From Bacteroidales bacterium (GTDB lineage Bacteria; Bacteroidota; Bacteroidia; Bacteroidales; WCHB1-69): DNA of 37,762 nt. The stretch covers positions 1-37,762 of the forward strand of contig JAGCXN010000034.1 in NCBI GenBank assembly GCA_017961265.1. Direction: 5' to 3'. The position numbers and the translations under genes are program-made. Of the stretch, positions 590 to 37,762 are shown in pieces; position 1 is the stretch's first letter; each line of letters starts with the position of its first letter. The notes beneath the pieces were generated by a model, which saw only the letters and a program-made list of their open reading frames with translations, had not been told where the DNA came from and did not search any database.

Positions 590-597
590 TTAAATGT

Positions 598-625
598 AAA
601 GACGTGCCATGGCACGTCTTTTAAA
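598..625 (+). terminator. Perfect palindrome after mutA, probable terminator
   Basis: A fully self-complementary GACGTGCCATGGCACGTC flanked by AAA and TTTT lies 8 bases after the mutA stop. It can fold into a 7-8 bp stem with a four-base loop followed by T4, and A-rich sequence follows. It ends only about 15 bases before the GTG start of the next gene, so it may also act as an attenuator or operator. Its core resembles the palindrome at 13144-13171. Confidence 0.7.
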
Positions 626-639
626 AAATTGACAATATT

Positions 640-2712: not shown

Positions 2713-2718
2713 TTACGT

Positions 2719-3450: not shown

Positions 3451-3479
3451 TCCGAAAATCTAATCGTAAATCAGAAACA

Positions 3480-18363: not shown

Positions 18364-18816
18364 TTAGTAAAGGTTGGAGCGGGTGAAGAACTCAAAACGC
18401 CACTTGTCACCATAGTCATCATAGAATTCGTAAATAAGATTCTTCTTTGAGAGTTTCTTGATAACTGCCGTGTATGTATAGCGTTTGTTGCGGAGCACAA
18501 AATTGACATACAACTCTTTTTCATGGTTCTGTAATGCCCACTCCCCATACATCGACTCATAATAGGTGGTACCCTGCAGAGCCGATACCGATACCATCCT
18601 TTCTGTAAAGAAGGCATAGTAACAGCCTGGATTGTTGGGAAGAACCTCTGTGGAATCAATCTTGTTCCCATTAAGATACACAGCATCCAGTTTCCAATAA
18701 CCCACAATACGTTCCTCAGGGTTGACGAAGCTCAAATAGGGGCCTTCCGCATAACGGCAGGAAGCAAAAGTAACAGCTATGAGAAACAAGAGACTATAAA
18801 ATGCGATTTTTTTCAT
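18364..18816 (-). CDS. Lipoprotein, lipocalin-like, 150 aa
   Basis: 150 residues. The signal peptide ends in the lipobox FASC with lipidated C20, so the mature protein is a membrane lipoprotein. The mature part begins with a VGYWKLDAVYLNG segment and then beta-strand-rich sequence (YYAFFTERMVSV, GEWALQNHEKELYVNF, YTAVIKKLSKKNLIYEF) ending DKWRFEFFTR. This is the pattern of Bacteroidota lipocalin-like lipoproteins, which are poorly characterised. It starts 18 bases after the stop of the giant adhesin gene and is probably expressed with it, so a role in handling or anchoring the giant protein is possible but unproven. Confidence 0.8.
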   Translation of the reverse strand: MKKIAFYSLLFLIAVTFASCRYAEGPYLSFVNPEERIVGYWKLDAVYLNGNKIDSTEVLPNNPGCYYAFFTERMVSVSALQGTTYYESMYGEWALQNHEKELYVNFVLRNKRYTYTAVIKKLSKKNLIYEFYDDYGDKWRFEFFTRSNLY

Positions 18817-18834: not shown

Positions 18835-19113
18835 TTATCTGACAACTGTTACCGTACCTGTCTTTTGGTATTTCTTATTGAAGTAATCCCCATACGTAAT
18901 CTTATAGGTGAAGACTCCAGCCTCGACCAATTTTCCGTTATGCTTGCCATTCCAGCCCACATTCGGATCGTTGGAACGGAAAATCAACTCGCCCCAACGG
19001 GAGTAAACAAGAACTTCATAGAAAGCATCGCCATTATTACTGATGATCGGCAACCAAATATCATTAATACCGTCATCGTTCGGGGTAAAGGCATTGGGCA
19101 CATATATGATTAC
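18835..19113 (-). other. T9SS type B (gliding motility-associated) C-terminal sorting domain
   Basis: The last 92 codons of the giant gene carry all hallmarks: VPNAFTPNDDGINDIW, YEVLVYSRWGELIFRS, VGWNGKHNGKLVEAGVFTYKI and a terminal TGTVTVVR. This domain directs export through the type IX secretion system. It places the giant protein at the cell surface or in the medium. Confidence 0.97.
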
Positions 19114-22100
19114 GTCAGGAATGACGGTAATGAGCACGGAAGCCGTGTCCACACAATTATGCTGGTCTGTAACTGTGAGGACCGTCCAATAGGTACCCGG
19201 ATCCATATACTCATGGATAGCTGACTGCTGGCTGGCGTAGCCTCCATCACCGAAATCATACTCCCATGTTGCGATAGAACCGTATGAATGGTCGTTGAAA
19301 TGCACCGAATAGCCCAAGATGAACTCAGTCGGATCGGCAGTGAAGTTTGCCGTAGGACCGGGGACCGCATCAATTGTGAAGGGGAGTACAAGAGTGCAGA
19401 CACCATCATCCACGACAAGGGTATAATCACCGGACGTAAGCTCGTCATTCATCGGAGCATCAGGATTAGGCGTCGTATTCCAGTTGTAGCTGTATGCGTT
19501 GAGATTATCGCCCACCACAGTAGCCGTACCGTCAGCGCGTCCGCAATAGGCAGGTGTCACCGATACGGTGAAATCAGGCATCGGATGGAACGGCACCACA
19601 ACTGTCATCGTATCGAAGCAGTTGTGTTGGTCAGTCAACGTCACAGTATAGGGGCCTACGGCAAGATTGTCGAGATGTTCGCCTTCCATGCCATTGCTCC
19701 AGATGAAGGAGTACTCGGGTGTACCGCCGTGTGCTTCCACCTCGATGATGGCGGTTTCTTCACCGTTGCAGCTCTCGGTCAGGGTTATCAGGTTGACCGT
19801 CAGTTCGTCCGGTTCGGAAATATCTGTAGAATCCGTGGCACTACAACCGTTGGCATCCGTCACAGTTACAAAATAGGATCCTGCGGCAAGGCTGTCAACT
19901 GTCTGTTCGTGCTTGTCACCTGTCCATGTGTAGGTATAGGGCGGAGTACCACCTTCGGGAAGCACTGTGGCCGCACCAGTCAGCGTACCAAAGCAATCGA
20001 CATTGTTGAGGACACTGGCAATGGCCGACAGCGAATCAGGCTGTTGGATGGTTACTTCCATCTGTGCCGTACAACCGTGATCATCCACAATGGAGATCGT
20101 ATAGACTCCTTCGTCCAAACCTGTAATCATGTATGGATCTTCCGTATTCAACGTAATTTCAGGGATGTCATCCGCCACTGTCAGTATATACGGAACGGTA
20201 CCGCCACTGATCGTGACTGTAGCCGTACCATTACTCTGACCATAGCAGAGAACATTGGATAATGAATCAACCACTGTGGACATAGGATCAGGCTCCCGGA
20301 AGTTCAGGGTCAAAGTGGTCTGGCAGTTGTGGGCGTCCGTAGCCGTAAACACATGGTCACCGCCGTTAATACCTGTAAAGGTAACCTGTTCCGTAGCGTC
20401 AGTAATGGTCTGTGTTTGCAGGTTATCATCCATCCAGATAGTATAACCGGCTGTGCCGCCCGCAACGGACACAGTGGCCGTACCGTCATCTCCGCCGAAA
20501 CAGGTGATAGGTGTAGTGTCTGCCTCCGTAAGGGTCAGTTGCGCTGGCTCTTCCAGAACAGATGTAACCGTTGCCGTACAGCCGTTGGCATCGGTAACCA
20601 CAATCGTGTAGGTTCCAGCCGCGCGATTTGCGACCGTATAGTCTCCAGCGCTGAGGTTGGTCGCTTCAGCAGCGCCGTTCACTGTAAGGCTGTAGGGGGC
20701 TGTTCCCTCCGCAAGATTCACCACAATGCTTCCATTGGCATCCTGATAGCAGAGCGGGTCTGTAGTGGAAACCTCAGTCATTTCAAGTGCGGTAGGTGTT
20801 CCTATCGTAAAGTCAACGGTAGCTTCGCAGCCATTGGCATCGCGTACAGCAGCCGTGTAATCACCTGCAGTCAGATTGGCGAAGGTGCCCGTAGCACCGG
20901 CCGCTACCGTCTGGGTGGTGGTGAAATCATCCACCGAAATGGTGTACGGAGCCGTACCGCCCGTCGGAGTGACGACAGCAGAGCCGTTGGCATCACCGAA
21001 GCAAAGCACGTCCACAATATTACCGGCAGTCATAGCCAGTACTGCAGGTTCGGTGATTGACACCGGCAGGGTCGTCACGCAGCCGTTGGCATCACGGATA
21101 CCCACCGTATGTGTCCCGGCAGCAAGATCAGTGAAGGTGACATTCTGCACAGCAGCCGCAGTTGTCTCCTGCTGGTTACCGTCAATATACAGGGTGAAGG
21201 GAGCCGTGCCGCCCGCGAAGGTCACCGTGGCGGTGGCATCACTGAGGCCATTGCAACTCACATTCACGACAGAAACCTGAGCCAGTGTCAGAAGATCCGG
21301 CTCATTCACAGTAAATGAAACCTGCGTCACGCAGCCATTGGCGTCCGTAGCCGTCACCGTATAGGTACCCGCTGACAAGTTGTCAATCTGCTGGTCACCT
21401 GCAGCATCCATCGTGATTTCCGTCTCATTCAAGACGAGTACATAGGGCAATGTGCCGCCCGTCACATTCACGATGGCATTACCGTCATCGCCCTGGTGGC
21501 ACAACGGCATTGTAATCGTACCAGCCGTCATCTGAAGCTGTTCGGGCGAAGTGACCGTAAGCGTATCCGTCATCTGGCAACCATTGGCATCCGTTACAAG
21601 AACAATATAGGTACCTGCCGTAAGTTGTGTAAAGGTGTAGCCAGCACCGGCAGCCACATCATAGGTGGTCACATTATTGTCAATACTGACAGTATAAGGA
21701 GCGGTGCCGCCATCTGGAGTGACCATACCACTTCCGTTTGCATCGCCAAAGCAAAGGACCGCCGTTTCGTCACTGACTGTAGCCGTCAACTCTTCGGGAT
21801 GGGTGAACTCAACTTCAGCCGTGGCAGTACAGCCGTATGCATCCGTCACGGTCACCGAATAGGTGCCTTCTGCGAGGCCATTATTCTGGGCATCCGTCGC
21901 ACCATTATTCCATTCATAAGTATAAGATTCAGCCCCACCAGAACCCGCAGCCAACGCCACGCCATCACTGCCTTCAAAACAACTGATACCACTTTGGACT
22001 ACCGCAGTTGCCGTAAGGTGGCTCGGCTCAGGCAGTGTGTAAGTGACCGTGGCCGTACAGCCATTACCATCAGTCACTATCACACTATATTCATAGTGCT

Positions 22101-25100
22101 GATTTTCAGTAACGACTTGAACAATTGAATCCGTAGTGGAGATCAAACCAGTGGCAGGTGTCCACTCATAAGAGTATTCACCATCACCACCTACGGGGAT
22201 AGCAGACAACGCCACCGTATCCCATTCACAATACTCGGTAGTGGAAGGCTCAACCGACAAGGTGATTGTTTCGGGCAGACGGAGTTGGATATTCATCACA
22301 GCGCTATTTTCACAAGCGTCGCTCACCGTAACAGCCACTATCATATCAGCCGTAACGGATGTGCCGGCAGCGGGATTCTGGGCAATGACGAGATCAGCAG
22401 CATCGGTCGTGCAGTTATCGGAGCTCACCTCACGCACCTCTTCCGTCAGGTCGGGAACCACAAACTGACAGTTGTCAGAGACAAGGAGGTGTTCGGCCAG
22501 CTGTTCTGCAAAGACGGGTGAAACCGTATCTTGAATGAGGATCGTTTCCGTCACTTCGTTGCTCTCGTTTCCGCAAAGGTCGGTGACCGTATAGGTTCTC
22601 ACTACCGTAATCGGACATCCAACAGTAACTGTCTGACTCGACTGCAGCGTCATATTTTCTCCAGAGCAAGCTTCTTCAATGGTGATTCCACCCAAAGCGA
22701 GGAGCTGTTCAACAGTTGTAGCAGCGGGACGCTGGGTCAGAACTGTCGTATCGCAACCATTCAAAACTGCATCGGCAATGATACCACTAATAACGGGAGC
22801 AATGCTGTCGAAAATAGTGATGGTGTGTGTCATCGTATCACTGACATTGCCGCACGCATCCGTCACCACATATTTTCTGATGATGGTGGTCGGGCAGGTG
22901 CCGTCCACCGATTCGGTATGGGCAACGGTCAGGCTGGCAAGAGCAGTACAAACGTCATTGAAGTCGAAGCCAAGTGACTGCAGTGCCTGCGAGGTAGTAG
23001 CAGCGGCATCAGCGGCAGTGGCATCGCAACCGCTCAGATGGGTTTCAACGGCATTGATCGTTACGGACGGAGCCACGCTGTCAAACACCTGCAAGGTCTG
23101 CATAAATTCGGCACTCACATTGCCACAAAGGTCAGTCACTTTGTAGTAACGGCTGATGACCATCGGACAGGAGCCATCCACCACATCACGGTGGGTGACA
23201 GCCAGTTCAGAAGCGGGCGTACAGTTATCGTCCAAAGTCAGACCAAGAGCGATGAGTCCGTCAGCAGTAGTGACAGCGGCGGGTGCGTCGTCAGCCGTAC
23301 AACCGTTATAAGTCACTGTCTCAATCGTACCAGCGATAGTCGGCACCACATCGTCGCTGACGCGGATAGTGTCGGTAGCCGATACGTAGCAGTTGCCGGC
23401 ATCTGTCAACTCAAAAGTGATTACATACATCCGGTCGCATTGTGCGGCATCCACATTCACCACGGTAGTGGCTGTAGCGGATGTCTGCACACCCTCACCG
23501 CTCCAAGAGATATTGAACGGTTCGGTGCCACCCGTAATTTCAGCCGTAATCTCCTGCGTTCCGATATTCGGGCAAAGGAGGGTATCTGGAGCCACCAACG
23601 TTACCGTAGGCATGTTGTAGGTGTTATCAAGAGAAATTTCAGCTGCTTCGGACGTACATCCAGCGGCAGTCTGCACCATAACGGTGTAGGTACCTGCGCC
23701 AAGACCTGTGAACGACGGTTGCGTCTGGTATTCGCCACCGTTCAATGAGTAGGTATAGCCTTCGCCAAGCGGTGCGGTAACCGTAACCACCCCCGTCGGA
23801 TCGCCGTTACAAGCGCTGTTGTCTGTACCGGCAAGCTGCGGAGTAGCAGGTATCGAATCCACAATCACGGTAACACTATCAGAAGCTGTGCTGCCGTTCG
23901 CATCCACTACCGTCACCACATAATGGTAGGTGCCAGGAGCTGGAGCTGCGGTCACATCCTGCACATCAGTAGCACTAAGTCCATCGGCAGGAGTCCACGT
24001 GAAAATGAAATCAGGAGTACCGCCATAGACCATCGGGGTTAATGAGATACTGTCTCCAAAACAGAAACGGCTGTCGGGCTGTATAATGTCAATCATAAGC
24101 ATATCCGGCACGACCACTTCAATATCCATGCTGCTGGAGTTATCGCAGCCATCAGAAATGGTCACCGTCACCGTCTGGTTCTGGTTCACCTGTGTATTTG
24201 CTGCAGGTGTCTGCTCAATGTTAATCTGATCAACTGGAGTGCAGTTATCGTCAATAATGAACGAAATCATCGTAGAAAAGTCCGGAATGAAGAAGTTGCC
24301 GCCCGAACCTGCCAAGTACTGAGTATCCACGGCAGACGTGAAGTACGGGCTGGTGGTATCCTGGATGTTGATAACCTGTGTCACTTCATTACTGACATTT
24401 CCGCAAGCATCCTCCACCATATAGGTTCTGGTTACAACTATCGGACATTCACCCGTCACTGTTTGTGTATAGGTGACGGTTACATCGGAGCAATCCTCAT
24501 CAACAGTAACGCCCAACGCGAGGAGAGCTTCCTCCGTAAGTGCCACTGGATAGTTCTGCAACACTGTTGTATCGCAGCCATCTATCGTTATTTCAGCTAT
24601 CGTTCCGTTGAGTTGAGGAGCAACGCTGTCGAAGACGGTGATGGTATGGGTCATGGTATCACTGACATTGCCACAAGCATCTGTCACCCTATATTTTCTT
24701 GTGATGACAATCGGGCAACTCCCATCCACCTGTTCTTCATATAACACTTGCAAATTAGCGAATTCCGTACATTCATCATGGAAAGCGAAGCCAATTTCCT
24801 GCAAAGAGTTAGGAGTGGTGGCCACCGCATCAGCCACGGACACATCGCAACCATTGAGCGCAGTTTCAATAATGGGAACAGTCACATCAGGAGCGACGCT
24901 GTCGAACACCTGCAACGTCTGCATAAATTCAGCACTCATATTCCCACAACCGTCAGTCACAGTGTAGTAGCGGTGAACCACGATGGGACAAGTACCGTCA
25001 GACACATCGCGATGAGCCACCACAAGATTATTAAGCGGTGTGCAGTTGTCTGTAACCGTCAGGCCCAGTGCGGTCAATTCTGCTGCGGTTCGTGCCGCAG

Positions 25101-28100
25101 CCGGAAGCACTTCAACCCCACAACCATTATACGTCACCACCGCCAATTCACCTTCAATAGTTGGAAGCTCAAGGTCACGAACGACAATCGTATCTGTGAC
25201 ACTATTGGTACAGTGGTTAACATCCTCAATCTCTACAGAGAAAATATACAATGTGTCGCAAGCATTGACAACAGGTGATATCACAGCCGTTTGGGCGATA
25301 CCTGGTGTAGGTTCGGTACCAGTCCAAGTGTACACGAAGGGTTCGGTACCGCCTGTAATCACAGCGGTAACAGTCTGGACGCCAGCATTCGGACAGATTA
25401 TACTGTCAGGTCCAAGGATAGTGACAGCAGGCACATCCTGATAAACGCCGACCTCCACAGTAGAGGCCTCAGAAACGCAACCATCGGGAGACATCACAAA
25501 AACGGTGTACGTGCCTTCTTGCAGTTCCGAGAACACTGTACTCGTCTGATACTCTTCACCATCAAGAGAATACTGATAGCCGCTACCTATCGGGGAGAGG
25601 ACTGCTATTGAGCCATTATATCCACCTGCGCAAAGGGTATTATCTGAAGTGAGCGTTTCCGGTGTTTCAGGAAGGGCATGTACTATGACCTGCACCTGCG
25701 CCGTCGTTTCGCATCCATTGGCATCATGGACAGTCACCTCATAGGTGTAGTTCCCCGCCGCAGGTGATGCCACCACCGTATTGACATCCGTCGCCGACAA
25801 TCCGTCTGCCGGTGACCACAAATAGGTATAATCCGGCACGCCATTTTCTACAACAGCTCCCAAAACGACGCTGCCACCCTGACAGAAGGAAGTGTCATTT
25901 TGTGTAATGGTTACAGAGGGAGTGCTCGGAATCGATACAGTGACTGTCTGTACGCTCGAATTGCCACATTCATCCTCGGCTGTAATCGTCACCGTCGTAT
26001 TTTCTGAAATCGGAGTACCTGCAAGTGGCGATTGTGTCACCGTAAGGCTTTCTAAATCCGTACAGTTGTCAGACAAGGTGGCAAGAGACAACGTCACATA
26101 ATCGGGTACGACAAATTCACAATCCGTACTTGTAACCGTACTGTCCGCAAACGTCACATGGAAGTCCGGACGCATGGTATCTTGGATTCTGAAAACCTGC
26201 GTAATCTCATTACTGACATTGCCGCAAGCATCCTCCACCGTATAAGTTCTCGTCACTATCATCGGACACGAGCCAGACTCTTCCTGAATTGCCGAAGACA
26301 ATACGACCGCATCGGACGAACAGTTCTCCGTGATGGAGAAGTTACCCAATGCCATAAATTCGTCAATATCTTCTGCCATAGGATATTGTCCCATTGCAGT
26401 AAGTCCGCAACCATCAAGAGTTACCGTATCAATTGTACCCGAAACAACAGGGGCGATACGGTCCACGATACGAATGGTATGCACCATCTCTTCACTCGTA
26501 TTACCACAGTGGTCTGCGACCGTGTAATGGCGGGTGATGACTAACGGGCAATGCGTATTGGAGGTATCTGCACTGACCGATACGGTCATCTCTGTACCAC
26601 ATTCATCGCTGAAGACAAAGCCGATGGCGGCCAACTCATCCACATTCCCGGCTACAGCAGGAGCATCCTCTGCCGTACAGCCATTGATGGTATCCTCCAC
26701 CGAAGCAACTTGCACAGAAGGTGGTGTATTATCCGTAATAATAATCGTTTCCCTAATAGAATCGCTCACATTTCCACACAGATCAGACAAAAGATAGGTG
26801 CGGTTGATCCGGACAGGACAACCCTCTGTGACTTGCGTAGATGTGAGGGTCAATATCAGATCGCCAATGTCTTCCACACAGTTGTCAGACACTTCGCAAC
26901 CATATTCTGCCAAATCATATGCCGACGTCAGGACATCGGGCAATGTCGTCTCTGAGGAGCAACCAAACAACCATACCGTATCCAAGTTACTATGAATCTC
27001 AGGAGCCGTATTGTCAAGAACAGTAATCACGGCCCGAGCCGTATCTACACACTGGTTGGCATCCGTTATACTTACGTAGAATGAATAGACGCTGTCGCAT
27101 GCGGTTTCATCAATTGCAACAGTGGCGGTTTCTTCGTCGTCAGTACCCGTAGCATCACCATGCCATTGATACTCAAATGGGCCTTCCCCTCCTTCAATCG
27201 TCGCTGACACGGTCTGGTCGCCTGCGATGGGACAAAGGACCTGAGTCTCAGCGGTGATACTGACGGACGGAAGTTCCTGCGAAGCACTTACGTGCACTGT
27301 AACCGTTTCCGACGAGCATCCATCCTCAGTCATCACTGTCAGCGTGTAGTCGCCTGAAGCAAGGTTTTCGAAAAGAGGCTCAAATTGATAGTTACCGCCA
27401 TTCAAAGAATAGAGGTAATGGTCTTCATCATTCGCCGGAGAAGTAACCGTAATTGTACCATTAGGTGTCCCTGTGCACACTGTGTTGGGGGTCGTTTCCG
27501 TCTCAGCGGCGGACGGGGTCTCATACACAGATATTCTGATATTTTCCACAGAAGCAGAACATCCGTTGGCATCCGTTACAGAAACCGTATAGACGTATGT
27601 AGTCTCATCTTCGGGGGTCACAGTAACCGTAGCACCGTCGGGATCAGCTATCTCAGATGTCGGTGTCACCGTCCATTCATAACCATAGGGAGCTGTGCCG
27701 TTGGTCACGGTTGAAATAAGTGTCACACTATTCCCTTGACAGATAGCAGTGTCTGTCAGATTTGTGGAAAGTTCAGGTATCGTCGGCATCAGGATTGCCA
27801 CCGAAATCGTGTTCGTATTACCACATCCATCGATTGCGGTGATTGTCACCACCGTATCGTTCGTCACCGCCTCTCCAGCCAAAGGCGTCTGATGTACCGT
27901 CAGTTCATCCGTCGGCGTACAATTGTCGTACAATGTATTCATGACGATTTCCACATAATCTGGAACCTCGAACGTACAGTTATCGCTTACCAACGTACTA
28001 TCAACAAGAGTGATACGGAAATCGGGGCGGGTCGTATCCTGAATATTAATCACCTGTTGAACCTCATTACTGATATTTTCACAGGCATCCTCAACAGAGT

Positions 28101-31100: not shown

Positions 31101-34100
31101 AGCCTGTTCCAACTGGAGCCGTTATCGTAAAGCTTCCGTTATGACCGCCCTGACAAGCGACATCGGGAAGGCTTGTCATCGTCGGCACTGCCGGAAGGGT
31201 ATCCACTTCCACAACAACCGTGTCGGTCGCCGTGCAGCCGTTGCCATCGGTCAATGTCACCACATAATGGTGAATGCCGGCTGCAGGAGTTGCTACCGGT
31301 GCACTGGCAGAAGCATCGTCCAAGCCGGCTTCGGGAGTCCATTGGTATGTATAGGTTTCAACCCCACCCTCGTAGATGGTTGGCAAATTCACACTCTGTC
31401 CTTCACACACTGCCGTATCGTTCAGGGTAATTTCCACGGTAAGTGTATCTGGAATCCGCACTTGGATCGTATAACTATTGCTATTATCACATACATCCGT
31501 CAAGGTGACCGTCACCTCCATGGCAGAAGTGACAGGAGTACCCGCATCCACAGACTGAACTATCCGGATATCATCAGGATGAGTACAGTTGTCTCCTGCA
31601 GATTCTGCAGCAATCGCCACAAAGTCGGGCACCACGAACTCGCAAGTCTGGGAAACCAACAGCGTATCGGTCACCGCCTCATTCCATGTAGGACGGCTAG
31701 TGTCACCAATCGTGATTGTATGGGTGACGGTATTGCTGACATTTTCGCAACCGTCAGTCACCCAGTAGCTACGGGTAATGACGATGGGACAGCTTCCTAC
31801 GGAATCTACCGTATGGTGTACCACCATCTCATCGTAAGTGCATGCTTCCTCTATGGTGAAGTTCAGATCCAGCAGTTGTGCCACCGTGGTAGCTGCCGGG
31901 TGGAACGACAGGATACTGCTATCACAAGAATAAAGGACCAGCGTTTCGGCTGTACCACTGATGACGGGCGCCACGCTATCGAAGATACTGATTGTATGGA
32001 TCATTTCAGCGCTCGTATTGTCACATTCGTCAGTCACAGTATAATGACGGGTTATCACCTTCGGACACGAAGTAGCTGTCGTGTCGGCGGTCACATTCAC
32101 GGTTAGGTCATCATCAGACGTGCATAGATCGGCAAAATCGAAACCGAGTGTTCGGAGAGCCGCCGCAGTCGTCGCTTCCGCAGGTGCGGATATCTCGCCG
32201 CAGGCATTCAGCTCCGTCGTCACTGTCGAAACCGTCACCGCAGGTGCTGTCTCATCATTAATGAGGATTGTACTATAAGCTGCATTACTTCGATTGCCAC
32301 AAGCATCGGTCACATAGTACCTTCTCGTGATCGTAATCGGGCAGCTTCCTGTCGTATCTGCCTCACAGCTCACGGTGAAGTCTCCGTTATTTGTACATGC
32401 ATCGCTATAACTTATTCCCGCATCCGTAAGTTGCTGCTCCGATGACCACTCCGCAGGCGCGACTTCCGCCGTACATCCCTCAATGCGGATGGTGTCACTA
32501 AAGTCTGCCATCACGGGAGCCGTAGTATCCACCACATAGAATGTATAGGTGTTGTCGGTTGAGCAGTTATTGGCATCCATGATATAGACGGTCACAGTAT
32601 AAGACGTATCGCACGCACCCGCAGTGATCCCTATCGTTCCGTGGAGGCTGTCGTTCACATCCTGTGTCACGTTATCACTCCATGTCACCGTTATTGGAGC
32701 GAGACCTCCTGTGATATGCGCACTGAGTTCCTGTTCGCCTTGGGACGGGCACAGCAAGGTTTCAATCGTATCAACCAGTACAGCGGGTATTTCGGGGGAA
32801 CGTTCCACTACCACAGTACCTGTACTTGTACAGCCAGCAGCGGCACTTATTTGAACCGTCACAGTATAAGTGGCTTCGCCAAGACCTGTATAAACAACAG
32901 CTGTATCTTGGAAGTCAGCCCCATTCAATGCATAACTATAACCTTCGCCAAGCGGACTCTCAATGGTGATACTACCGTTATGTCCTCCTGTGCAGGCCAC
33001 ATCAGGCAAACTGGACAATACCGGATCAGCGGGGAGTGTATCCACCTCTACGTTCACCGTGTCGGTGGCAGTACATCCATTACCGTCCGTCAGCGTCACC
33101 ACATACCGATAAGTTCCGTCCTCTGGTGTCGCGACCGGCTCAGCGGCTAAGGCATCGTCCAAGCCGGATGTAGGCATCCATGAATAGGTATATGGTTCCA
33201 CGCCACCTTCATAGGCCGTAGTGAGCGTCACGCTCTGGCCTTCGCATATTGCTGTGTCGTTCAGGGTAATTTCAACCGTAAGAGGTTCAGGCAGCGTTAC
33301 ATGAACTGTTATCGTATTGGTATTTCCACACAAATCAGATATGGTCACCACCACATCCTGTTCAGAATCTGTAGGTGTTCCTGCGGCGGGGATTTGTTGT
33401 GTTACAACAATTTGTGCAGTGTCAGTACAATTATCCGCCACATGTCGCAAGACCGTATCGGACAGATCGGGAATCACGAATTCACAGCTGGTTGAAACCA
33501 GAAGCTGCTCTGGAATTTCCGCAGTGAAATAGGGACGGATGCTATCGGTAATGTTGATGGTCTGCTCTGTCGTGGTTGAATTTCCACAAAGATCAAAAAT
33601 CTCATACGTGCGGACAATATGACCAGCACAGTTATCATCTGCCATATAATCGGAATGGGAAACCCCTACCCTATCCGTATTCAGGTTACAATCGGAAATT
33701 TCCAGACCTGCATTCACCAGTCCTTCAACATCCAATGTATCAGGCAACTGATAAGTACAATTATCCAAGCGATAGATAGTCACCGCCTCCAATGTATGGG
33801 ATACTATAGGACTTGTCGTATCACGCACAACGATAGTTTGGAAGAGCGTGACAGGCGCATTCCCGCAATCATCGGTAAATGTATAAACCTGCACATAACT
33901 CCATTCACAGCCTTCCCCATTATTGGTGGTATCACGGTGTGAAACTTCAAAATTGATTTGAGGACTGCAATCTGTAACGTCAAAATCAGTGAGTTGCAGA
34001 GGCTCTGGAGCTGTGTATGCACATTCGGCATCCGTATAATATACCACGAGTGTATCAGCAAGATTGTCCACAACCACGGGACGTGCTGTATCTTGAACAA

Positions 34101-37100
34101 TAATATTTTGTACCAGCGTATTAGAATTACCGCATTGGTCAAACACTTCGTAGGTACGTATCAGAGTTCCTTGACAATTATTTGTCGTCTCGAAACTGGA
34201 ATGAGTCACCGCGATGGTATCCAGCCGTAAATTACAGTCAGTAAAGACAATGCCCGCAGCTACAAGTCCGTTCACATCCAGTGTATCCGGCAACAGATAA
34301 CTGCAATCAGGCTGTTTGTATATAGTAATGTCGTCCAGCGAGTTTGCGATGGCAGGACGCGTAGTATCCCTTACTGTAATAGTCTGAAGCACTTCAACAG
34401 GGCCATTACCGCACGCATCCACAAAGGAATAGACACGGACATAGCTCCACTCGCAGCCAGTACCGTTGTTCGAAGTGTCACGGTGCGAAACCGTCATTTC
34501 CACCTCATTACAATCCTCTACCGTGAAAGACGATTGTGGGAGAACAGGAATGTCCGCCAATGAACAGTCATTCCCACTATAATATAATATTGTATCATTG
34601 AGATGACCCGCTACGACAGGACGAGTAGTATCCATTACCGTAATAGTCTGCAAAACTTCGACAGGGCCATTGCCGCACGCATCCACGAAGGAGTAAACAC
34701 GTACATAACTCCATTCGCAGCCAGTGCCATTGTTCGAAGTATCCCTGTGCGAAACCGTCATTTCCACTTCATTGCAGTCATTAATCTGAAAATCAGATTT
34801 GTCCAATATCTGGATTTCATCATGTCCACAATTATTATTATAGTATGTAGTGTCTGACGGAAGTATTGTAGTGATTTGCGGAGCAACGGTATCTATGACG
34901 ACAATTGTCTGAGGCACATTGGTCGAATTTCCACAACTATCAGAAACAGTGTATGTACGGATAATTTCAGTAGCACAAGCACTCACAGGGGCATTGCTAT
35001 TATCTACATAGGAGACCTCCCCTACCAAATTGCAGTCTGAAATTGCCACTCCTGCTGCGACTAACTGAGCAACAGTTGTGAAAGCGGTAGGCAATACATA
35101 CCCGCAATCGGAAGCCGCATAAACCGTATCATTAGCAAGAGTGCCGGTAATTTCAGGATCCTCCTCATCGTTGAAAATGATGTTCTGGATGATATTCACC
35201 GTATTGCCACACGAATCAGCGACGGTATAGGTACGATGATAGGTAACGTGACAAGTGGCGGAGATGTCATCCGTAACCGAAGTGAGTGAGAAACCATTGG
35301 AACAATTGTCGGTGATGGCAGCCCCCTCACCCATCAAAGCGAGAAGTTCAGCAACATTGGATACCGCAGCTGGAAGTTCGGACAGACAAGTAATGGTGGT
35401 ATCTGGAATCGTTCCTGTCAATATAGGATTATGGACATCGGTAATAATAAAGGAGGTCGTGTCCTGCGCATTACAACCATTAGCATCGGTGACGGACAAA
35501 TAGACCGTATCCACACCATAGCAGGCATGGTTGCCGACAGGAAGTGTCGCTGTATGTTCATGGCCGGATACTCCCGTGTAAGGATATTCCACTCCCCCAT
35601 AAGTGTACACTATCGTAAAGGGTGTTGCGCCTTGGTCGATACCAACAGAGATGTCCACCTCTGTGGCATTGGGGCAGACAGTATCAATATTCTGAATGGC
35701 CAATGTCTGGGATTCGAGCAATACAACGGTAAACGGGAACGTGGTGCTACATTCGTTAATGTCATCTACAATCACCGAATAGTTGTAGCCGACTTCCAAT
35801 CCCGTCCATTCGTCCCCCACTCCCATCACAGAATCATTCACAAGCCAATAGGCTGTATAGGGTGCTTCGCCGCCTGAAATTTCCAAAACGGCATCCACTG
35901 GTTCTCCGAAACAAGAGGTCGGATCCGTCACAAAACCCACTCTGATGGAATCTTTCACATTGATCACGACAGTATCTCGAATCGTTGCCGGACATGGATC
36001 ATACATTTCCAGCACCCATTCGAAGGTATATTCGCCCTCCTGATCAACTGTCACATCGGTCAGATAGTTGGTCGGATCATCCATAATCGCCGCGGCATCA
36101 GCAGGATTCACGGAGACTATTGACCAATGACCCGTACTCCCTGTATTTGGAGAGACTGCTTCCAATGTGAACTGATTTGCACAATAGGTGCGGTCGGCAC
36201 CAGCGGAGGTCACCTCATCCCCATTCGCCAGGATGATGGGAATCTGATACACGTCCGTATTCACACAACCGTTATCCCCTGACTGTGCTGAAATAATGGT
36301 CAGGACACCATTTTGCGGAGCCGTAAGATACTCATTCTCATCATATAAATCCTCCCAGTAGTTCTCACCTTCATGCAACAGCCATGAATAGGTCTCCCCA
36401 TATAAAGTGAAAGTGACTGTCACATTATCCATGTTGGAATAAAAAATAAGGGGAATAGACCAACCCGTACAGATGACCGCATCATCTTCCAAAGAAACCG
36501 TTACGACTGGTGAAGGATTCAACGAAACATTAAAAGATACCGTCTCCACGTTACAAGCACCAGAGACTATCACAGTATAGGTTCCCGCATCCAACTCACC
36601 AACATTACCGAGTGTAAGATTGGAAGTCATATCTCCTTCCGCCATCGGATCGCCTGGCACCGGGTTCCCATTCAACAGCCATTCATATTGTGCATCAGGG
36701 TACGGCATGGATGACTCCACAAACAGACGTATGTCATCCCCTTCACACAACAACATATCCCTGCTGGAGCGAATAATTCTGACATTGGGAAGAACCGTTA
36801 CTTCAATTTCTTCAAATTTGTAAGAAGGACAACAAGGCGGACTCACATCAACGTGAAGAATCACTGTCTGTGGTTCATCAGTGGTGTTGGTAAATTCCAC
36901 TGATATGCAATGGAAGGTAGGATCGGATACAATCGATGCATACCGATCTCCCTCAACAATAGACCAGTTATAGAAATATCCCTGAAAATAGTCAATGCAA
37001 TAGTCTTCCTCACCGGGGCACACTTCACCCTCTCCAGTAATGGGTGAAATTTCTTCAGGCTCATTCAACAGGAGATTGAAACCCGCATAGGAGTTGGAAC

Positions 37101-37762
37101 CGACTTCTGGAGTTTTACGACCGATGCCTGTGGCCTGGAAGTCGAGGTCAGAATCTGTATTCTCGTACTGGATACGGGTACAAGACGAACCACTGGACGG
37201 ATTCGAACCCGTGCCGAATTCCGTGTAGTTGATGTTGTTGCCGCACATATCCATATCCACATTGATACAGTTGGTATAGGGCTTTTCCGAAGAACCGGCA
37301 ATGATGATAGGCTGCTGGGTAAGGTTGGCGAAGTTCGTATATTCGCTGCTGGAGATAGGGGTAGCATTACCGTATTCATCAACATCAAGGGTACGATAAT
37401 GGACCTCATTCTGGGGTGCATCTGCGCCACGGCCGCCACGACCGCCATTGCCACCGGCACCACCGTTATCACCTAAGCCGCCCCATGCTGTGGCGCGGAA
37501 ATTAGTATTGTTCAGGGCAGTTGGATCGTCGGCATGAGTGTTAGCATGGGCTGTGGAGGCCAACCCACCCTGACCACCTTGGCCGCCATTGCCACCAAGT
37601 GCACCCAATCCACCGACACCGCCACTTCCTACTTGTGAATAACAGTCCACGAAGCTGCGGTTGCCCAAATCCTTATAGCAATAGATGGCGAAAGAGCCGC
37701 CGCCGCCGTAACCGCCGCCACCGCCTTGGCCGCCACCGCCGCCGCCACCGCCGCCTCCGCCG
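18835..37762 (-). CDS. Giant SprB-like T9SS-secreted adhesin, at least ~6,300 aa (5' end outside window)
   Basis: An uninterrupted frame runs from the right edge to TAA at 18835. No true start is visible: the first in-frame start-like codon (TTG, 37668) is preceded by open glycine-rich coding sequence up to the edge, so the N terminus lies outside. Order from N terminus: glycine-rich segment (37400-37762), PKD/Ig-like segments, HYR-like modules (33289-35436), six composite repeats (22273-33288), a partial seventh, about eleven SprB repeats (19363-22023), a PKD domain (19117-19362) and a T9SS type B sorting domain (18835-19113). The body is Thr/Asp/Val-rich with regularly placed cysteines (CGN, NCT, CP motifs). 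SprB of Flavobacterium is a mobile gliding adhesin of comparable plan. Expected location is the cell surface after T9SS export. Ligand unknown. Confidence 0.97.
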   Translation of the reverse strand, partial: GGGGGGGGGGGQGGGGGYGGGGSFAIYCYKDLGNRSFVDCYSQVGSGGVGGLGALGGNGGQGGQGGLASTAHANTHADDPTALNNTNFRATAWGGLGDNGGAGGNGGRGGRGADAPQNEVHYRTLDVDEYGNATPISSSEYTNFANLTQQPIIIAGSSEKPYTNCINVDMDMCGNNINYTEFGTGSNPSSGSSCTRIQYENTDSDLDFQATGIGRKTPEVGSNSYAGFNLLLNEPEEISPITGEGEVCPGEEDYCIDYFQGYFYNWSIVEGDRYASIVSDPTFHCISVEFTNTTDEPQTVILHVDVSPPCCPSYKFEEIEVTVLPNVRIIRSSRDMLLCEGDDIRLFVESSMPYPDAQYEWLLNGNPVPGDPMAEGDMTSNLTLGNVGELDAGTYTVIVSGACNVETVSFNVSLNPSPVVTVSLEDDAVICTGWSIPLIFYSNMDNVTVTFTLYGETYSWLLHEGENYWEDLYDENEYLTAPQNGVLTIISAQSGDNGCVNTDVYQIPIILANGDEVTSAGADRTYCANQFTLEAVSPNTGSTGHWSIVSVNPADAAAIMDDPTNYLTDVTVDQEGEYTFEWVLEMYDPCPATIRDTVVINVKDSIRVGFVTDPTSCFGEPVDAVLEISGGEAPYTAYWLVNDSVMGVGDEWTGLEVGYNYSVIVDDINECSTTFPFTVVLLESQTLAIQNIDTVCPNATEVDISVGIDQGATPFTIVYTYGGVEYPYTGVSGHEHTATLPVGNHACYGVDTVYLSVTDANGCNAQDTTSFIITDVHNPILTGTIPDTTITCLSELPAAVSNVAELLALMGEGAAITDNCSNGFSLTSVTDDISATCHVTYHRTYTVADSCGNTVNIIQNIIFNDEEDPEITGTLANDTVYAASDCGYVLPTAFTTVAQLVAAGVAISDCNLVGEVSYVDNSNAPVSACATEIIRTYTVSDSCGNSTNVPQTIVVIDTVAPQITTILPSDTTYYNNNCGHDEIQILDKSDFQINDCNEVEMTVSHRDTSNNGTGCEWSYVRVYSFVDACGNGPVEVLQTITVMDTTRPVVAGHLNDTILYYSGNDCSLADIPVLPQSSFTVEDCNEVEMTVSHRDTSNNGTGCEWSYVRVYSFVDACGNGPVEVLQTITVRDTTRPAIANSLDDITIYKQPDCSYLLPDTLDVNGLVAAGIVFTDCNLRLDTIAVTHSSFETTNNCQGTLIRTYEVFDQCGNSNTLVQNIIVQDTARPVVVDNLADTLVVYYTDAECAYTAPEPLQLTDFDVTDCSPQINFEVSHRDTTNNGEGCEWSYVQVYTFTDDCGNAPVTLFQTIVVRDTTSPIVSHTLEAVTIYRLDNCTYQLPDTLDVEGLVNAGLEISDCNLNTDRVGVSHSDYMADDNCAGHIVRTYEIFDLCGNSTTTEQTINITDSIRPYFTAEIPEQLLVSTSCEFVIPDLSDTVLRHVADNCTDTAQIVVTQQIPAAGTPTDSEQDVVVTISDLCGNTNTITVHVTLPEPLTVEITLNDTAICEGQSVTLTTAYEGGVEPYTYSWMPTSGLDDALAAEPVATPEDGTYRYVVTLTDGNGCTATDTVNVEVDTLPADPVLSSLPDVACTGGHNGSITIESPLGEGYSYALNGADFQDTAVVYTGLGEATYTVTVQISAAAGCTSTGTVVVERSPEIPAVLVDTIETLLCPSQGEQELSAHITGGLAPITVTWSDNVTQDVNDSLHGTIGITAGACDTSYTVTVYIMDANNCSTDNTYTFYVVDTTAPVMADFSDTIRIEGCTAEVAPAEWSSEQQLTDAGISYSDACTNNGDFTVSCEADTTGSCPITITRRYYVTDACGNRSNAAYSTILINDETAPAVTVSTVTTELNACGEISAPAEATTAAALRTLGFDFADLCTSDDDLTVNVTADTTATSCPKVITRHYTVTDECDNTSAEMIHTISIFDSVAPVISGTAETLVLYSCDSSILSFHPAATTVAQLLDLNFTIEEACTYDEMVVHHTVDSVGSCPIVITRSYWVTDGCENVSNTVTHTITIGDTSRPTWNEAVTDTLLVSQTCEFVVPDFVAIAAESAGDNCTHPDDIRIVQSVDAGTPVTSAMEVTVTLTDVCDNSNSYTIQVRIPDTLTVEITLNDTAVCEGQSVNLPTIYEGGVETYTYQWTPEAGLDDASASAPVATPAAGIHHYVVTLTDGNGCTATDTVVVEVDTLPAVPTMTSLPDVACQGGHNGSFTITAPVGTGYSYALDGADFQDTSNVYTGLSDGTYTVTVQTSAAAGCTSTGTVTVERSPEIPDVAVDTIETLLCPGQGVQELSAQIMGGLAPINVTWSENVEQDVNDSLQGIISIVAGACDTSYTVTVYIRDANNCTTEDTYTFYVVDTTAPVMAEFSDTLRIEGCSAAAAPAELASEAELLAAEMSFSDACTAPGNFLVSCEADTTGSCPVVITRNYYVSDACGNRSNAATMVIEINDETAPVVSAITIDTLIEGCDVSAAVPEVTTAAGLEAIGFTIEDACTENADMTVSVAADTNGTCPTVITRRYVVADLCNNVSDTMRHIIRIKDTTAPVVSGTLAVVEVEGCDYTALSEYPIAQSWQDLSAASYATGVTLTEACTDSEDLQLRCEETRDGDCPTTVTRKYVLEDLCHNISDTLVHLLKFDDNTAPYFTQEIADQVLVSGNCVFTMPDLTDTIRRYIADNCTSVENIIIAQNIDVDQVLTETQTVTITITDACGNSYDTTLTVAVPQPLSLSVMLGDTSVCEGASVVIPTTISGGVAPYTYAWEPTEGLSDASADTVTATPAAGTYSYMVTVTDANGCTDTDGMTLQVDTIPAVPTLSMSPNTICVGQQNGSITVENPVGDGYYYSLNNAGYQDTASVYNNLETGDYTVTVKTEEGCVSQPATIHVDNSQELPTVNITHIAAVICPNAGTQAMEAVVTGGEAPFTYTWTGAEEVNDSITTVNIDPTVCDSAYLITIQVVDANNCTSTDMDTLYVRDTVRPTISGTYEPITYNGCSVDDAPVAVTTLDGLSGLGLTYSDNCTELSDEVSSRQEVVGNCPKEVRRYYTITDACHLVSDEYLHVLYVFDSVAPDVTMDEITTHLNACDESSAPAVAVTSAALQQIGFTFSDNCTATDELLVESSADTASSCPIVLTRKYVVKDSCGNTSDTMTHIITIFDSIAPVINGTIAEVTVDGCDTTVLRSYPMATDAVALEALGVEIVEQCSDVTVHYTEIVAGSCPIVVTRTYSVEDACENISNEVQQVINIQDTTRPDFRITLVDSTLVSDNCTFEVPDYVEIVMNTLYDNCTPTDELTVHQTPLAGEAVTNDTVVTITAIDGCGNTNTISVAILMPTIPELSTNLTDTAICQGNSVTLISTVTNGTAPYGYEWTVTPTSEIADPDGATVTVTPEDETTYVYTVSVTDANGCSASVENIRISVYETPSAAETETTPNTVCTGTPNGTITVTSPANDEDHYLYSLNGGNYQFEPLFENLASGDYTLTVMTEDGCSSETVTVHVSASQELPSVSITAETQVLCPIAGDQTVSATIEGGEGPFEYQWHGDATGTDDEETATVAIDETACDSVYSFYVSITDANQCVDTARAVITVLDNTAPEIHSNLDTVWLFGCSSETTLPDVLTSAYDLAEYGCEVSDNCVEDIGDLILTLTSTQVTEGCPVRINRTYLLSDLCGNVSDSIRETIIITDNTPPSVQVASVEDTINGCTAEDAPAVAGNVDELAAIGFVFSDECGTEMTVSVSADTSNTHCPLVITRHYTVADHCGNTSEEMVHTIRIVDRIAPVVSGTIDTVTLDGCGLTAMGQYPMAEDIDEFMALGNFSITENCSSDAVVLSSAIQEESGSCPMIVTRTYTVEDACGNVSNEITQVFRIQDTMRPDFHVTFADSTVTSTDCEFVVPDYVTLSLATLSDNCTDLESLTVTQSPLAGTPISENTTVTITAEDECGNSSVQTVTVSIPSTPSVTITQNDTSFCQGGSVVLGAVVENGVPDYTYLWSPADGLSATDVNTVVASPAAGNYTYEVTVHDANGCETTAQVQVIVHALPETPETLTSDNTLCAGGYNGSIAVLSPIGSGYQYSLDGEEYQTSTVFSELQEGTYTVFVMSPDGCVSEASTVEVGVYQDVPAVTILGPDSIICPNAGVQTVTAVITGGTEPFVYTWTGTEPTPGIAQTAVISPVVNACDTLYIFSVEIEDVNHCTNSVTDTIVVRDLELPTIEGELAVVTYNGCGVEVLPAAARTAAELTALGLTVTDNCTPLNNLVVAHRDVSDGTCPIVVHRYYTVTDGCGNMSAEFMQTLQVFDSVAPDVTVPIIETALNGCDVSVADAVATTPNSLQEIGFAFHDECTEFANLQVLYEEQVDGSCPIVITRKYRVTDACGNVSDTMTHTITVFDSVAPQLNGTIAEITIDGCDTTVLQNYPVALTEEALLALGVTVDEDCSDVTVTYTQTVTGECPIVVTRTYMVEDACGNVSNEVTQVINIQDTTSPYFTSAVDTQYLAGSGGNFFIPDFSTMISFIIDDNCTPVDQINIEQTPAANTQVNQNQTVTVTISDGCDNSSSMDIEVVVPDMLMIDIIQPDSRFCFGDSISLTPMVYGGTPDFIFTWTPADGLSATDVQDVTAAPAPGTYHYVVTVVDANGSTASDSVTVIVDSIPATPQLAGTDNSACNGDPTGVVTVTAPLGEGYTYSLNGGEYQTQPSFTGLGAGTYTVMVQTAAGCTSEAAEISLDNTYNMPTVTLVAPDTLLCPNIGTQEITAEITGGTEPFNISWSGEGVQTSATATTVVNVDAAQCDRMYVITFELTDAGNCYVSATDTIRVSDDVVPTIAGTIETVTYNGCTADDAPAAVTTADGLIALGLTLDDNCTPASELAVTHRDVVDGSCPMVISRYYKVTDLCGNVSAEFMQTLQVFDSVAPSVTINAVETHLSGCDATAADAAATTSQALQSLGFDFNDVCTALASLTVAHTESVDGTCPTTIIRKYVVTDACGNVSDTMTHTITIFDSIAPVISGIIADAVLNGCDTTVLTQRPAATTVEQLLALGGITIEEACSGENMTLQSSQTVTVGCPITVVRTYTVTDLCGNESNEVTETILIQDTVSPVFAEQLAEHLLVSDNCQFVVPDLTEEVREVSSDNCTTDAADLVIAQNPAAGTSVTADMIVAVTVSDACENSAVMNIQLRLPETITLSVEPSTTEYCEWDTVALSAIPVGGDGEYSYEWTPATGLISTTDSIVQVVTENQHYEYSVIVTDGNGCTATVTYTLPEPSHLTATAVVQSGISCFEGSDGVALAAGSGGAESYTYEWNNGATDAQNNGLAEGTYSVTVTDAYGCTATAEVEFTHPEELTATVSDETAVLCFGDANGSGMVTPDGGTAPYTVSIDNNVTTYDVAAGAGYTFTQLTAGTYIVLVTDANGCQMTDTLTVTSPEQLQMTAGTITMPLCHQGDDGNAIVNVTGGTLPYVLVLNETEITMDAAGDQQIDNLSAGTYTVTATDANGCVTQVSFTVNEPDLLTLAQVSVVNVSCNGLSDATATVTFAGGTAPFTLYIDGNQQETTAAAVQNVTFTDLAAGTHTVGIRDANGCVTTLPVSITEPAVLAMTAGNIVDVLCFGDANGSAVVTPTGGTAPYTISVDDFTTTQTVAAGATGTFANLTAGDYTAAVRDANGCEATVDFTIGTPTALEMTEVSTTDPLCYQDANGSIVVNLAEGTAPYSLTVNGAAEATNLSAGDYTVANRAAGTYTIVVTDANGCTATVTSVLEEPAQLTLTEADTTPITCFGGDDGTATVSVAGGTAGYTIWMDDNLQTQTITDATEQVTFTGINGGDHVFTATDAHNCQTTLTLNFREPDPMSTVVDSLSNVLCYGQSNGTATVTISGGTVPYILTVADDIPEITLNTEDPYMITGLDEGVYTISIVDDHGCTAQMEVTIQQPDSLSAIASVLNNVDCFGTLTGAATVLPEGGTPPYTYTWTGDKHEQTVDSLAAGSYFVTVTDANGCSATDSTDISEPDELTVNLITLTESCNGEETAIIEVEAHGGTPEYSFIWSNGMEGEHLDNLAVGPYTVTLTDQHNCFDTMTVVVPFHPMPDFTVSVTPAYCGRADGTATVVGDNLNAYSYNWNTTPNPDAPMNDELTSGDYTLVVDDGVCTLVLPFTIDAVPGPTANFTADPTEFILGYSVHFNDHSYGSIATWEYDFGDGGYASQQSAIHEYMDPGTYWTVLTVTDQHNCVDTASVLITVIPDVIIYVPNAFTPNDDGINDIWLPIISNNGDAFYEVLVYSRWGELIFRSNDPNVGWNGKHNGKLVEAGVFTYKITYGDYFNKKYQKTGTVTVVR
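19117..19362 (-). other. PKD domain of the giant protein
   Basis: About 82 codons: ANFTADPTEF, the core WEYDFGDGGYAS and DPGTYWTVLTVTD motifs of PKD domains, then VDTASVLITVIPD. It connects the SprB array to the sorting domain. Confidence 0.92.
19363..22023 (-). repeat. Array of about eleven SprB repeats
   Basis: About 887 codons in units of about 75-85 residues. Each has a C-(F/Y/N)-G-x-x-(N/D)-G opening, a GGTAPY strand, an L-x-A-G-x-Y-T turn and DANGC before the next proline-containing linker (EPA, SPE, EPD). This matches the SprB repeat family (PF13573). The last one or two units are degenerate. Confidence 0.9.
22024..22272 (-). repeat. Partial seventh composite unit
   Basis: About 83 codons that begin like the opening module of the composite units (CEWDTVALSA, YEWTPATGL, IVTDGNGCTATV) and then pass straight into the SprB array. 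It marks the end of the composite-repeat block. Confidence 0.8.
22273..24105 (-). repeat. Composite repeat unit 6 (611 codons)
   Basis: Module order as in unit 1. It opens DMLMIDIIQPDSRFC and ends ..VMNIQLRLP before the partial unit. Its HYR-like part closely resembles that of unit 5. Confidence 0.85.
24106..25926 (-). repeat. Composite repeat unit 5 (607 codons)
   Basis: It opens STPSVTITQNDTSFCQGGS. It contains the TYNGC, LNGCD and IDGCDTTVL HYR-like modules shared with units 3 and 6. Its final module has lost the usual LVS-x-x-C cysteine (it reads LAGSGGNFFIPD). Confidence 0.85.
25927..27783 (-). repeat. Composite repeat unit 4 (619 codons)
   Basis: It opens TIPELSTNLTDTAICQGNS. It is the longest unit, with a slightly expanded first module (VTPTSEIADPDGATVTVTP). 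It includes four HYR-like modules and the terminal SIP linker. Confidence 0.85.
27784..29598 (-). repeat. Composite repeat unit 3 (605 codons)
   Basis: It opens QPLSLSVMLGDTSVCEGAS. It has the same module order as the others. It is the shortest unit and ends AILMP. Confidence 0.85.
29599..31449 (-). repeat. Composite repeat unit 2 (617 codons)
   Basis: It opens DTLTVEITLNDTAVCEGQS. Its first half is very close to unit 1, with shared runs such as AAAGCTSTGTV, VERSPEIP and VDTIETLLCP. Its fourth HYR-like module diverges (SWQDLSAASYATG insertion). Confidence 0.87.
31450..33288 (-). repeat. Composite repeat unit 1 (613 codons)
   Basis: It opens EPLTVEITLNDTAICEGQS. Module order: a SprB/PKD-like module (CEGQS..GGV..YTYSW..DGNGC), a second module (C-x-GGHNGS..GYSYALNG), a third (LCPSQG..GGLAP..CDTSY..DANNC), then three HYR-like modules (GC or AC..SCP-x-x-ITR-x-Y-x-VTD) and a final one (LVSQTCEFVVPD..DNCT). 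This plan repeats in all six units. Confidence 0.87.
33289..35436 (-). repeat. HYR-like module block before the composite repeats
   Basis: About 716 codons holding eight or so HYR-like modules of about 85-90 residues. Each ends with a (S/A/F)-x-(C)GN motif followed by a strand and D(T/S)-x-(A/R)P opening the next module. Two of them share an identical 48-residue block (34372-34515 and 34636-34779). Confidence 0.85.
37400..37762 (-). repeat. Glycine-rich low-complexity coding segment at the right edge
   Basis: Coding on the - strand with runs of GGC/GGT glycine codons (GGQGG, GGNGG and GGRGG motifs), broken by SFAIYCYKDLGNRSFVDCYSQ and a short Ala/His-rich stretch. The window ends within this segment. 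It is part of the giant protein's N-terminal region, not intergenic, because the frame stays open. Confidence 0.85.

Follow-up and report, generated by a model that had tools for sequence, protein, structure and literature searches.

A predicted giant T9SS type B surface protein of Bacteroidales with a conserved six-by-seven super-repeat

Introduction

Half of one Bacteroidales contig is taken up by a single reading frame whose start is not reached. What protein does such a frame encode, where is the rest of it, and what about it deserves attention? The DNA analysed here, called the window, is 37,762 bases long and is the entire contig C17 of its own assembly, G000 (1.89 Mb, 47 contigs, 76.8% complete). 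A sequence-only reading of the window had proposed a giant T9SS type B surface protein with composite repeats that starts outside the window, and had considered it rare for its length. The first proposal is supported by domain matches and by an N-terminal piece on a second contig. The second is not supported. The interest lies in a conserved six-by-seven stalk and in a head without a match; the length alone is ordinary.

The giant reading frame

The visible part of the gene lies at 18835..37761 on the minus strand and is open at the right contig edge. As had been claimed, it is one uninterrupted frame over half of the window, with 6,308 codons plus a stop. If 3 of 64 codons are assumed to be stops, the probability of such a stop-free run is about 10^-131. 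The translated part is an acidic protein of 666 kDa with a calculated pI of 4.05, containing 13.9% Thr, 3.3% Cys, 0.4% Lys and 13.5% Asp plus Glu. Lysine makes up merely 0.2-0.4% of residues in all parts of the window protein and in the orthologues of three other genomes (G001, G003 and G005). An assembly chimera is ruled out by the domain order, which is identical in orthologues.

SprB of Flavobacterium johnsoniae is given as 6,497 aa (PMC9870892). Other genomes of the family or order contain frames of 14,117, 8,359 and 7,914 codons, and the same assembly has another very long frame, of 8,480 aa or more. Record length was therefore dropped as a point of interest. The second frame of the assembly (G000:C32:1-25440) has a start and a hydrophobic leader, is open at the first base of its contig, and carries scattered HYR/SprB-like modules from residue 5649 onward. 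The 14,117-codon frame (G046:C131) belongs to the same family of bacteria. As far as part of the frame was compared, its end resembles a type A tail by eye, which points to a different design.

The missing N-terminal end

The right end of the contig is a glycine-coding GCC/GGC run (37696-37762). It belongs to a Gly-rich segment of about residues 1-130 (37372..37761, minus strand), recognized from the repeat run and the aligned orthologues, and this segment is where the assembly breaks. The orthologue on contig C32 of G003 breaks at the same spot. A profile of the first 210 residues of the orthologues detected another contig of the own assembly, C43, with an E value of 8.8e-109. C43 (8,033 bases) carries a minus-strand frame at 14-3703 that encodes 1,225 residues from Met. 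In this frame and in the orthologues, the Met is followed by a hydrophobic, signal-like leader, as judged by eye. Alignment to five orthologues leaves 10-16 residues between the end of the C43 frame and residue 1 of the window protein. Adding the 1,225, 10-16 and 6,308 residues therefore gives a predicted whole of about 7,545 aa. The complete orthologues, counted from the first Met, have 7,701 aa in G001 and 7,689 aa in G005.

The surrounding genes agree between species on both sides. The next genes on C43 are efflux genes of the Pfam OEP and HlyD types; their counterparts beside the giant gene are 91 and 93% identical in G010 and 73 and 79% identical in G009. On the other side, the lipoprotein and YitT genes downstream in the window have counterparts of 91 and 96% identity behind the giant gene in G010. 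Judged by these alignments, the window holds the last five sixths of a single gene whose N-terminal piece lies on C43.

The C43 frame meets a stop codon at bases 14-16, so continuity in the own genome is not proven. This stop is located beside the broken contig end, and from these data a real stop is indistinguishable from an assembly error. Freedom from a splitting stop or frameshift, on which the sequence-only reading depended, thus holds for the 6,308 intact codons of the window and is qualified by the stop on C43, a place where G001 and G005 are stop-free. In G007, the giant gene is also found in two overlapping frames of 3,692 and 4,008 codons (G007:C158:13881-13960), by a real split or by an assembly error. 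The stop and the split in G007 both favor a gene that is truly interrupted in the own genome, leaving a secreted head and a remnant. Against this stand the two whole orthologues, the position of both contig ends within one glycine-rich region that also interrupts the G003 assembly, and the 6,308 downstream codons, which are intact and under purifying selection. We consider an interrupted gene improbable.

Domain organization

The window protein was scanned with Pfam in six pieces at E <= 0.01. Pfam and NCBIfam confirmed all of the SprB, PKD, HYR-like and type B sorting domains that had been read from the sequence. SprB (PF13573) matched in nine stretches with an E value of 1.6e-74, PKD_4 with 1.1e-11, and Ig_7 with 3.6e-8 at best. 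Among the profiles proposed for the search, SprB, PKD and TIGR04131 matched. PF02494, the HYR domain proper, did not match at E <= 0.01, and HYR_4C (PF23237) was found instead (best E 2.3e-17). The sorting-domain profile expected at the C-terminus is present: TIGR04131 scores 53.1 bits against a cut-off of 35, which classes the protein as a T9SS type B substrate, and CHU_C scores 48.7 bits against a cut-off of 27 (E 8.7e-13).

All parts of the protein are encoded on the minus strand. Behind the Gly-rich segment lies a conserved region with Ig/PKD-like modules (residues 131-608, 35938..37371), defined by an Ig_3 match and the orthologue alignment. Searched together, these two parts retrieved strong orthologues in the same genus only. 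A lead-in follows (residues 609-1494, 33280..35937), which holds Ig-like and SprB-like modules and a run of eight HYR modules; the length of the run differs between species. The six super-repeats come next. They are followed by a terminal Ig7-like module and a classical SprB array (residues 5167-6124, 19390..22263), recognized by the nine SprB stretches and the domain models. A PKD domain at about residues 6138-6213 (19123..19350) is matched by PKD and PKD_4 and also matches the PKD domains of collagenases. The T9SS type B sorting domain (CHU_C in Pfam, TIGR04131 in NCBIfam) occupies 18847..19104.

The six-by-seven stalk

Self-comparison of the protein in tiles revealed a repeat about every 610 residues. 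Six units, each 605-619 aa long, follow one another over residues 1495-5166 and share 37-60% mutual identity. Unit comparison and domain models place super-repeat 1 (613 aa) at 31441..33279, super-repeat 2 (617 aa) at 29590..31440, and super-repeat 3 (605 aa) at 27775..29589. Super-repeats 4 (619 aa, 25918..27774), 5 (607 aa, 24097..25917) and 6 (611 aa, 22264..24096) are delimited in the same way and are also supported by a tree of the copies. In five genomes, every unit reads Ig7, SprBa, SprBb, HYR1, HYR2, HYR3 and HYRt in this order, which makes 42 domains in the six blocks counted. These module labels are our own and follow the nearest Pfam domains. The domain models were built from the same units that they then read, excluding the 883-aa copy 2 of G001 and G005. 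The composite repeats that had been noticed are thus present; their ordered, conserved six-by-seven arrangement had not been resolved.

The number of copies is constant. Six units are found in all five genomes with an assembled array, in one frame each in G000, G001, G003 and G005 and in two overlapping frames on one contig in G007; the count omits G009 and G010, whose arrays are not assembled through. The part after unit 6 is also near-constant in all six proteins compared, with 1142 residues in G000 and G005, 1143 in G001, G003 and G007, and 1139 in G010. In contrast, the HYR run of the lead-in varies between 628 and 898 residues in six proteins. Copy 2 of G001, G005 and G007 contains three extra HYR modules, which share 64-65% identity with the lead-in of their own protein. 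The large ordered array has therefore kept its copy number, despite near-saturated synonymous sites, while smaller HYR modules were gained or lost in the same protein.

How old is this array? A tree was built from 29 units, omitting copy 2 of G007, which is split over two frames, and including the 883-aa copy 2 of G001 and G005. Across the five species, the units cluster by position for copy 4 (support 100/99), copy 5 (95/92) and copy 6 (100/100). Copies 1, 2 and 3 are not grouped by copy, which suggests exchange or rearrangement among them. On the evidence of the tree, the array predates these species, and some internal exchange probably took place with no change in the count of six. In 18 pairs, the synonymous differences amount to 0.62-0.78 and the non-synonymous ones to 0.21-0.39. 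In every pair, pN is well below pS, and synonymous sites are near saturation. By these measures the array is old and under purifying selection. A recent tandem expansion is ruled out, since TRF finds only the GCC run and synonymous sites between copies are near saturation.

The retention of six copies in related species suggests that fibre length is important. The constancy may also be passive: the copies of the window are now just 54-61% alike in DNA (three pairs compared), and copies this diverged may no longer recombine. A stronger proposal is that the stalk serves as a molecular ruler, in which selection would keep the six blocks and the near-constant base so that the head stays at a set distance. 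It would then be an independent bacterial case of the plan seen in titin, with a new conserved lipoprotein partner. We offer this proposal tentatively and regard it as doubtful at present. In the A-band D-zone of titin, as described, a super-repeat of seven domains occurs six times (PMC10665226). The likeness is one of formal plan only, six-by-seven beta-sandwich domains, and no homology is claimed; the titin domains are Ig and FnIII domains of an intracellular muscle protein.

Giant repeat adhesins are usually thought to be variable in length, and BAP is one case. BAP is described as highly polymorphic between strains, repeats included (PMC4647330), and MpAFP as having about 120 identical copies of one domain (PMC4083281). 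Both resemble the window protein in their very long stalks of Ig-like domains. The copies of the window protein differ from theirs in being old, diverged and constant in number. Among the listed titles and abstract beginnings of open-licence papers, we found no description of this protein or of a conserved super-repeat in a bacterial adhesin. With this array, it can be examined first computationally and later by experiment whether the length of a surface fibre is under selection in bacteria.

The head and its distribution

When the window's species is compared with three others, the N-terminal head, which comprises about the first 210 residues, shows 68-71% identity, against 52-63% for the remainder of the N-terminal piece. 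Identity to G001 and G005 is 45-48% in the core behind the Gly-rich part and 60-62% in the C-terminal part, where the closer G010 has 75%. No match to the head was found in Pfam, NCBIfam or the PDB (PDB search at E <= 1). An Ig_2 domain lies behind it. Among 198 genomes of the phylum, the head is matched in four besides the own genome, with a best E value of 1.1e-20. A conserved head that lacks a solved or curated relative, together with an adjoining lipoprotein, provides testable handles on anchoring and binding in giant T9SS type B proteins.

The first 733 residues of the window protein match the own genome at one place, which is the gene itself. Strong orthologues are present in six of the 12 remaining genus genomes and are 46-55% identical over almost the full query length; elsewhere among the 99 genomes searched nothing comes close, the next best match having an E value of 8.2e-17. 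With the own genome included, seven of the 13 genus genomes contain a strong match to this N-terminal part, which the other 86 all lack. The genus genomes that lack a strong orthologue include G004, G006 and G012, which are 91-94% complete, and thus the gene is not universal in the genus. A pattern scan of an 84,980-species collection with the alignment behind the Gly-rich part yielded six loci, all from Bacteroidales, in a collection where very near records may be absent. The contigs of three orthologues come from sheep rumen, water buffalo rumen and horse faeces. The same kind of scan with the window protein alone gave nine pattern matches and no relative.

Two other origins were considered and rejected. 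A viral origin was rejected because no relative was present among 314 pattern matches. The TANFOR polymorphic toxins of Bacteroidota are described as carrying an N-terminal TANFOR domain, TIGR02542 (PMC7073777). A toxin-tipped protein of this type was rejected, as neither the 1,225 aa of C43 nor the N-terminus of the G001 orthologue has an NCBIfam match at E <= 0.1.

Neighbouring genes, secretion and gliding

The genes downstream of the giant in the window encode a lipocalin-like lipoprotein and YitT. The lipoprotein gene (18364..18816, minus strand) begins 18 bases behind the giant's stop and matches Lipocalin_4 with an E value of 3.3e-4 and 21.9 bits, just under the cut-off of 22.4. Its designation as a lipoprotein is based on a lipobox-like leader read by eye. 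A lipocalin-like lipoprotein gene is located downstream of the giant in all six genomes with that side assembled, the window and five others; G009 is omitted, as its contig ends inside the giant gene. The proteins are 91% (G010), 64% (G005), 57% (G003 and G001) and 51% (G007) identical to that of the window. In G001, G003 and G007, a further lipoprotein-like frame, judged by eye, is found between the giant and the lipocalin-like gene. One or two lipocalin-like lipoproteins adjoin the giant at the position where SprB has sprF.

Type B substrates are described as exported by the T9SS in dependence on PorP/SprF, by which they are thought to be anchored, and their genes are usually clustered with that of the barrel (PMC10202324). 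According to the title of a reference, sprF, sprC and sprD share the operon of sprB. No PorP/SprF-family gene is present on the giant's contig in any of the seven orthologue loci. The family is represented elsewhere in the genomes, by 34 matches at E <= 1e-10 in the 13 genus genomes (33 over the cut-off). There are two or three per genome, and every genome has one over the cut-off.

Other components of secretion and gliding are widespread. SprA scores 2,543.6 bits on G000:C9; all 13 genus genomes have it over the cut-off, and it is missing from all 14 controls. GldB is likewise over the cut-off in 13 of 13. The window itself carries gldF and gldG, which encode a gliding-associated ABC transporter (2719..5237, plus strand; TIGR03518 and TIGR03521 over the cut-off). 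A full-length GldJ-like match occurs in 12 of the 13 genus genomes with 416-431 bits, always under the cut-off of 458; the exception is G001, though it is 97% complete. In the own genome, the GldJ-like protein adjoins a PorP/SprF gene. Across the 99 genomes of the order, the own included, a GldJ-like protein is found in 87 at E <= 1e-60 and passes the cut-off in 35, so gliding-type genes may be common in the order, in cultured and uncultured members alike. A survey of oral bacteria lists GldJ in 21 species of three genera (PMC11705866), which indicates that GldJ is not universal. Control searches in 14 named genomes each gave no match for SprA, PorP/SprF or TIGR04131, one for GldB and two for GldJ, both of the latter families under the cut-off.

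Proposed function

We propose, with a probability of roughly 0.72, that the gene encodes an adhesive fibre of about 7,545 aa and near-constant length, which would be exported by the T9SS, tethered to the outer membrane and equipped with a head that binds a target. The leader would send the chain into the Sec pathway, after which the T9SS would carry it across the outer membrane. By comparison with the type B families, the type B domain and the SprB/PKD base may then stay attached to the cell surface through a PorP/SprF-like barrel whose gene lies elsewhere. The lipocalin-like lipoprotein is a likely accessory. The Ig/HYR modules contain conserved cysteines, seen as invariant alignment columns, and these cysteine-rich modules could form a stiff stalk. 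Such a stalk would keep the N-terminal head, the presumed target-binding end, at a near-constant distance from the cell. If the modules are rigid and stacked end to end, the 64 or so in the window part, at about 4 nm apiece, would give an estimated fibre length of roughly 250 nm. Movement of the fibre by the gliding machinery is possible, but it is not implied, because the GldJ-like gene extends far beyond the range of the giant.

SprB itself carries SprB repeats. A true motility adhesin, that is, a functional SprB carried by a GldLM motor along a GldJ track in cells that glide, is one alternative; the window protein combines these repeats with a type B domain, as SprB does. GldF and GldG over the cut-off in the window, GldB and SprA in all genus genomes and the full-length GldJ-like match in nearly all of them are also consistent with gliding. 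The ranges do not agree, however. GldJ-like proteins occur in 87 of the 99 genomes and the 733-residue part of the giant in 7 of 13 genus genomes and none of the 86 others, so that the distribution of the gliding set does not follow that of the giant. The GldJ proteins of the genus all score below a cut-off that 35 of the 99 genomes pass, and the contigs of the giant carry no PorP/SprF gene. We regard gliding as a rather unlikely purpose. A static adhesin or biofilm fibre, which would attach to plant fibre, mucus or microbes in the rumen or hindgut and need no motor, has about an even chance of being correct. The rumen and faecal sources of three orthologue contigs, the patchy presence within the genus and the Ig-rich architecture, as described for BAP (PMC4647330) and MpAFP (PMC4083281), argue for it; against it, neither Pfam nor NCBIfam detects a carbohydrate-binding domain in the protein pieces scanned.

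The third alternative is a grappling hook that catches prey or partner cells, as GhpA does in Aureispira. No solved chain scores better than GhpA of Aureispira sp. CCB-QB1 (PDB 9flp, 5,898 aa). Its matches fall in the Ig modules that follow the head, where the best stretch has 62.8 bits, and in the stalk, where its best stretch is the Ig7/SprBa part (294.6 bits in total). The hooks of Aureispira are described as T9SS-secreted and heptameric (PMC11205867), and GhpA shares with the window protein its giant size, an extracellular location (predicted for the latter) and Ig and Ig7/SprB-like modules. The likeness is nevertheless limited to Ig-type modules, beyond which no homology was found. The first 176 profile positions are left uncovered, the head alone is without a PDB match, and the C-terminal 1,142 aa, searched as a single sequence, do not retrieve GhpA at E <= 0.001. 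A hook is very unlikely in our estimate.

For the tethered adhesive fibre that we prefer, SprB and GhpA can serve as models, in that the protein may work like either of them; identity with SprB goes no further than analogy. The SprB-type plan that had been proposed stands in this sense: the window protein resembles SprB as a giant surface protein with a type B sorting domain (PMC10202324), encoded in a genome with T9SS and gld genes. The SprB repeats are a further shared feature. The window protein departs from SprB in having a lipocalin-like lipoprotein as its neighbour in place of an sprF-family gene. The six-by-seven super-repeat of the window protein may be a further difference; the comparison with SprB is based on published descriptions.

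A further protein with a T9SS sorting domain is encoded in the window. At 13421-14842 (minus strand) lies a gene for a FISUMP (Fib_succ_major) protein, in which a type A sorting domain is internal (residues 83-156) and the FISUMP domain is C-terminal, an order that looks unusual.
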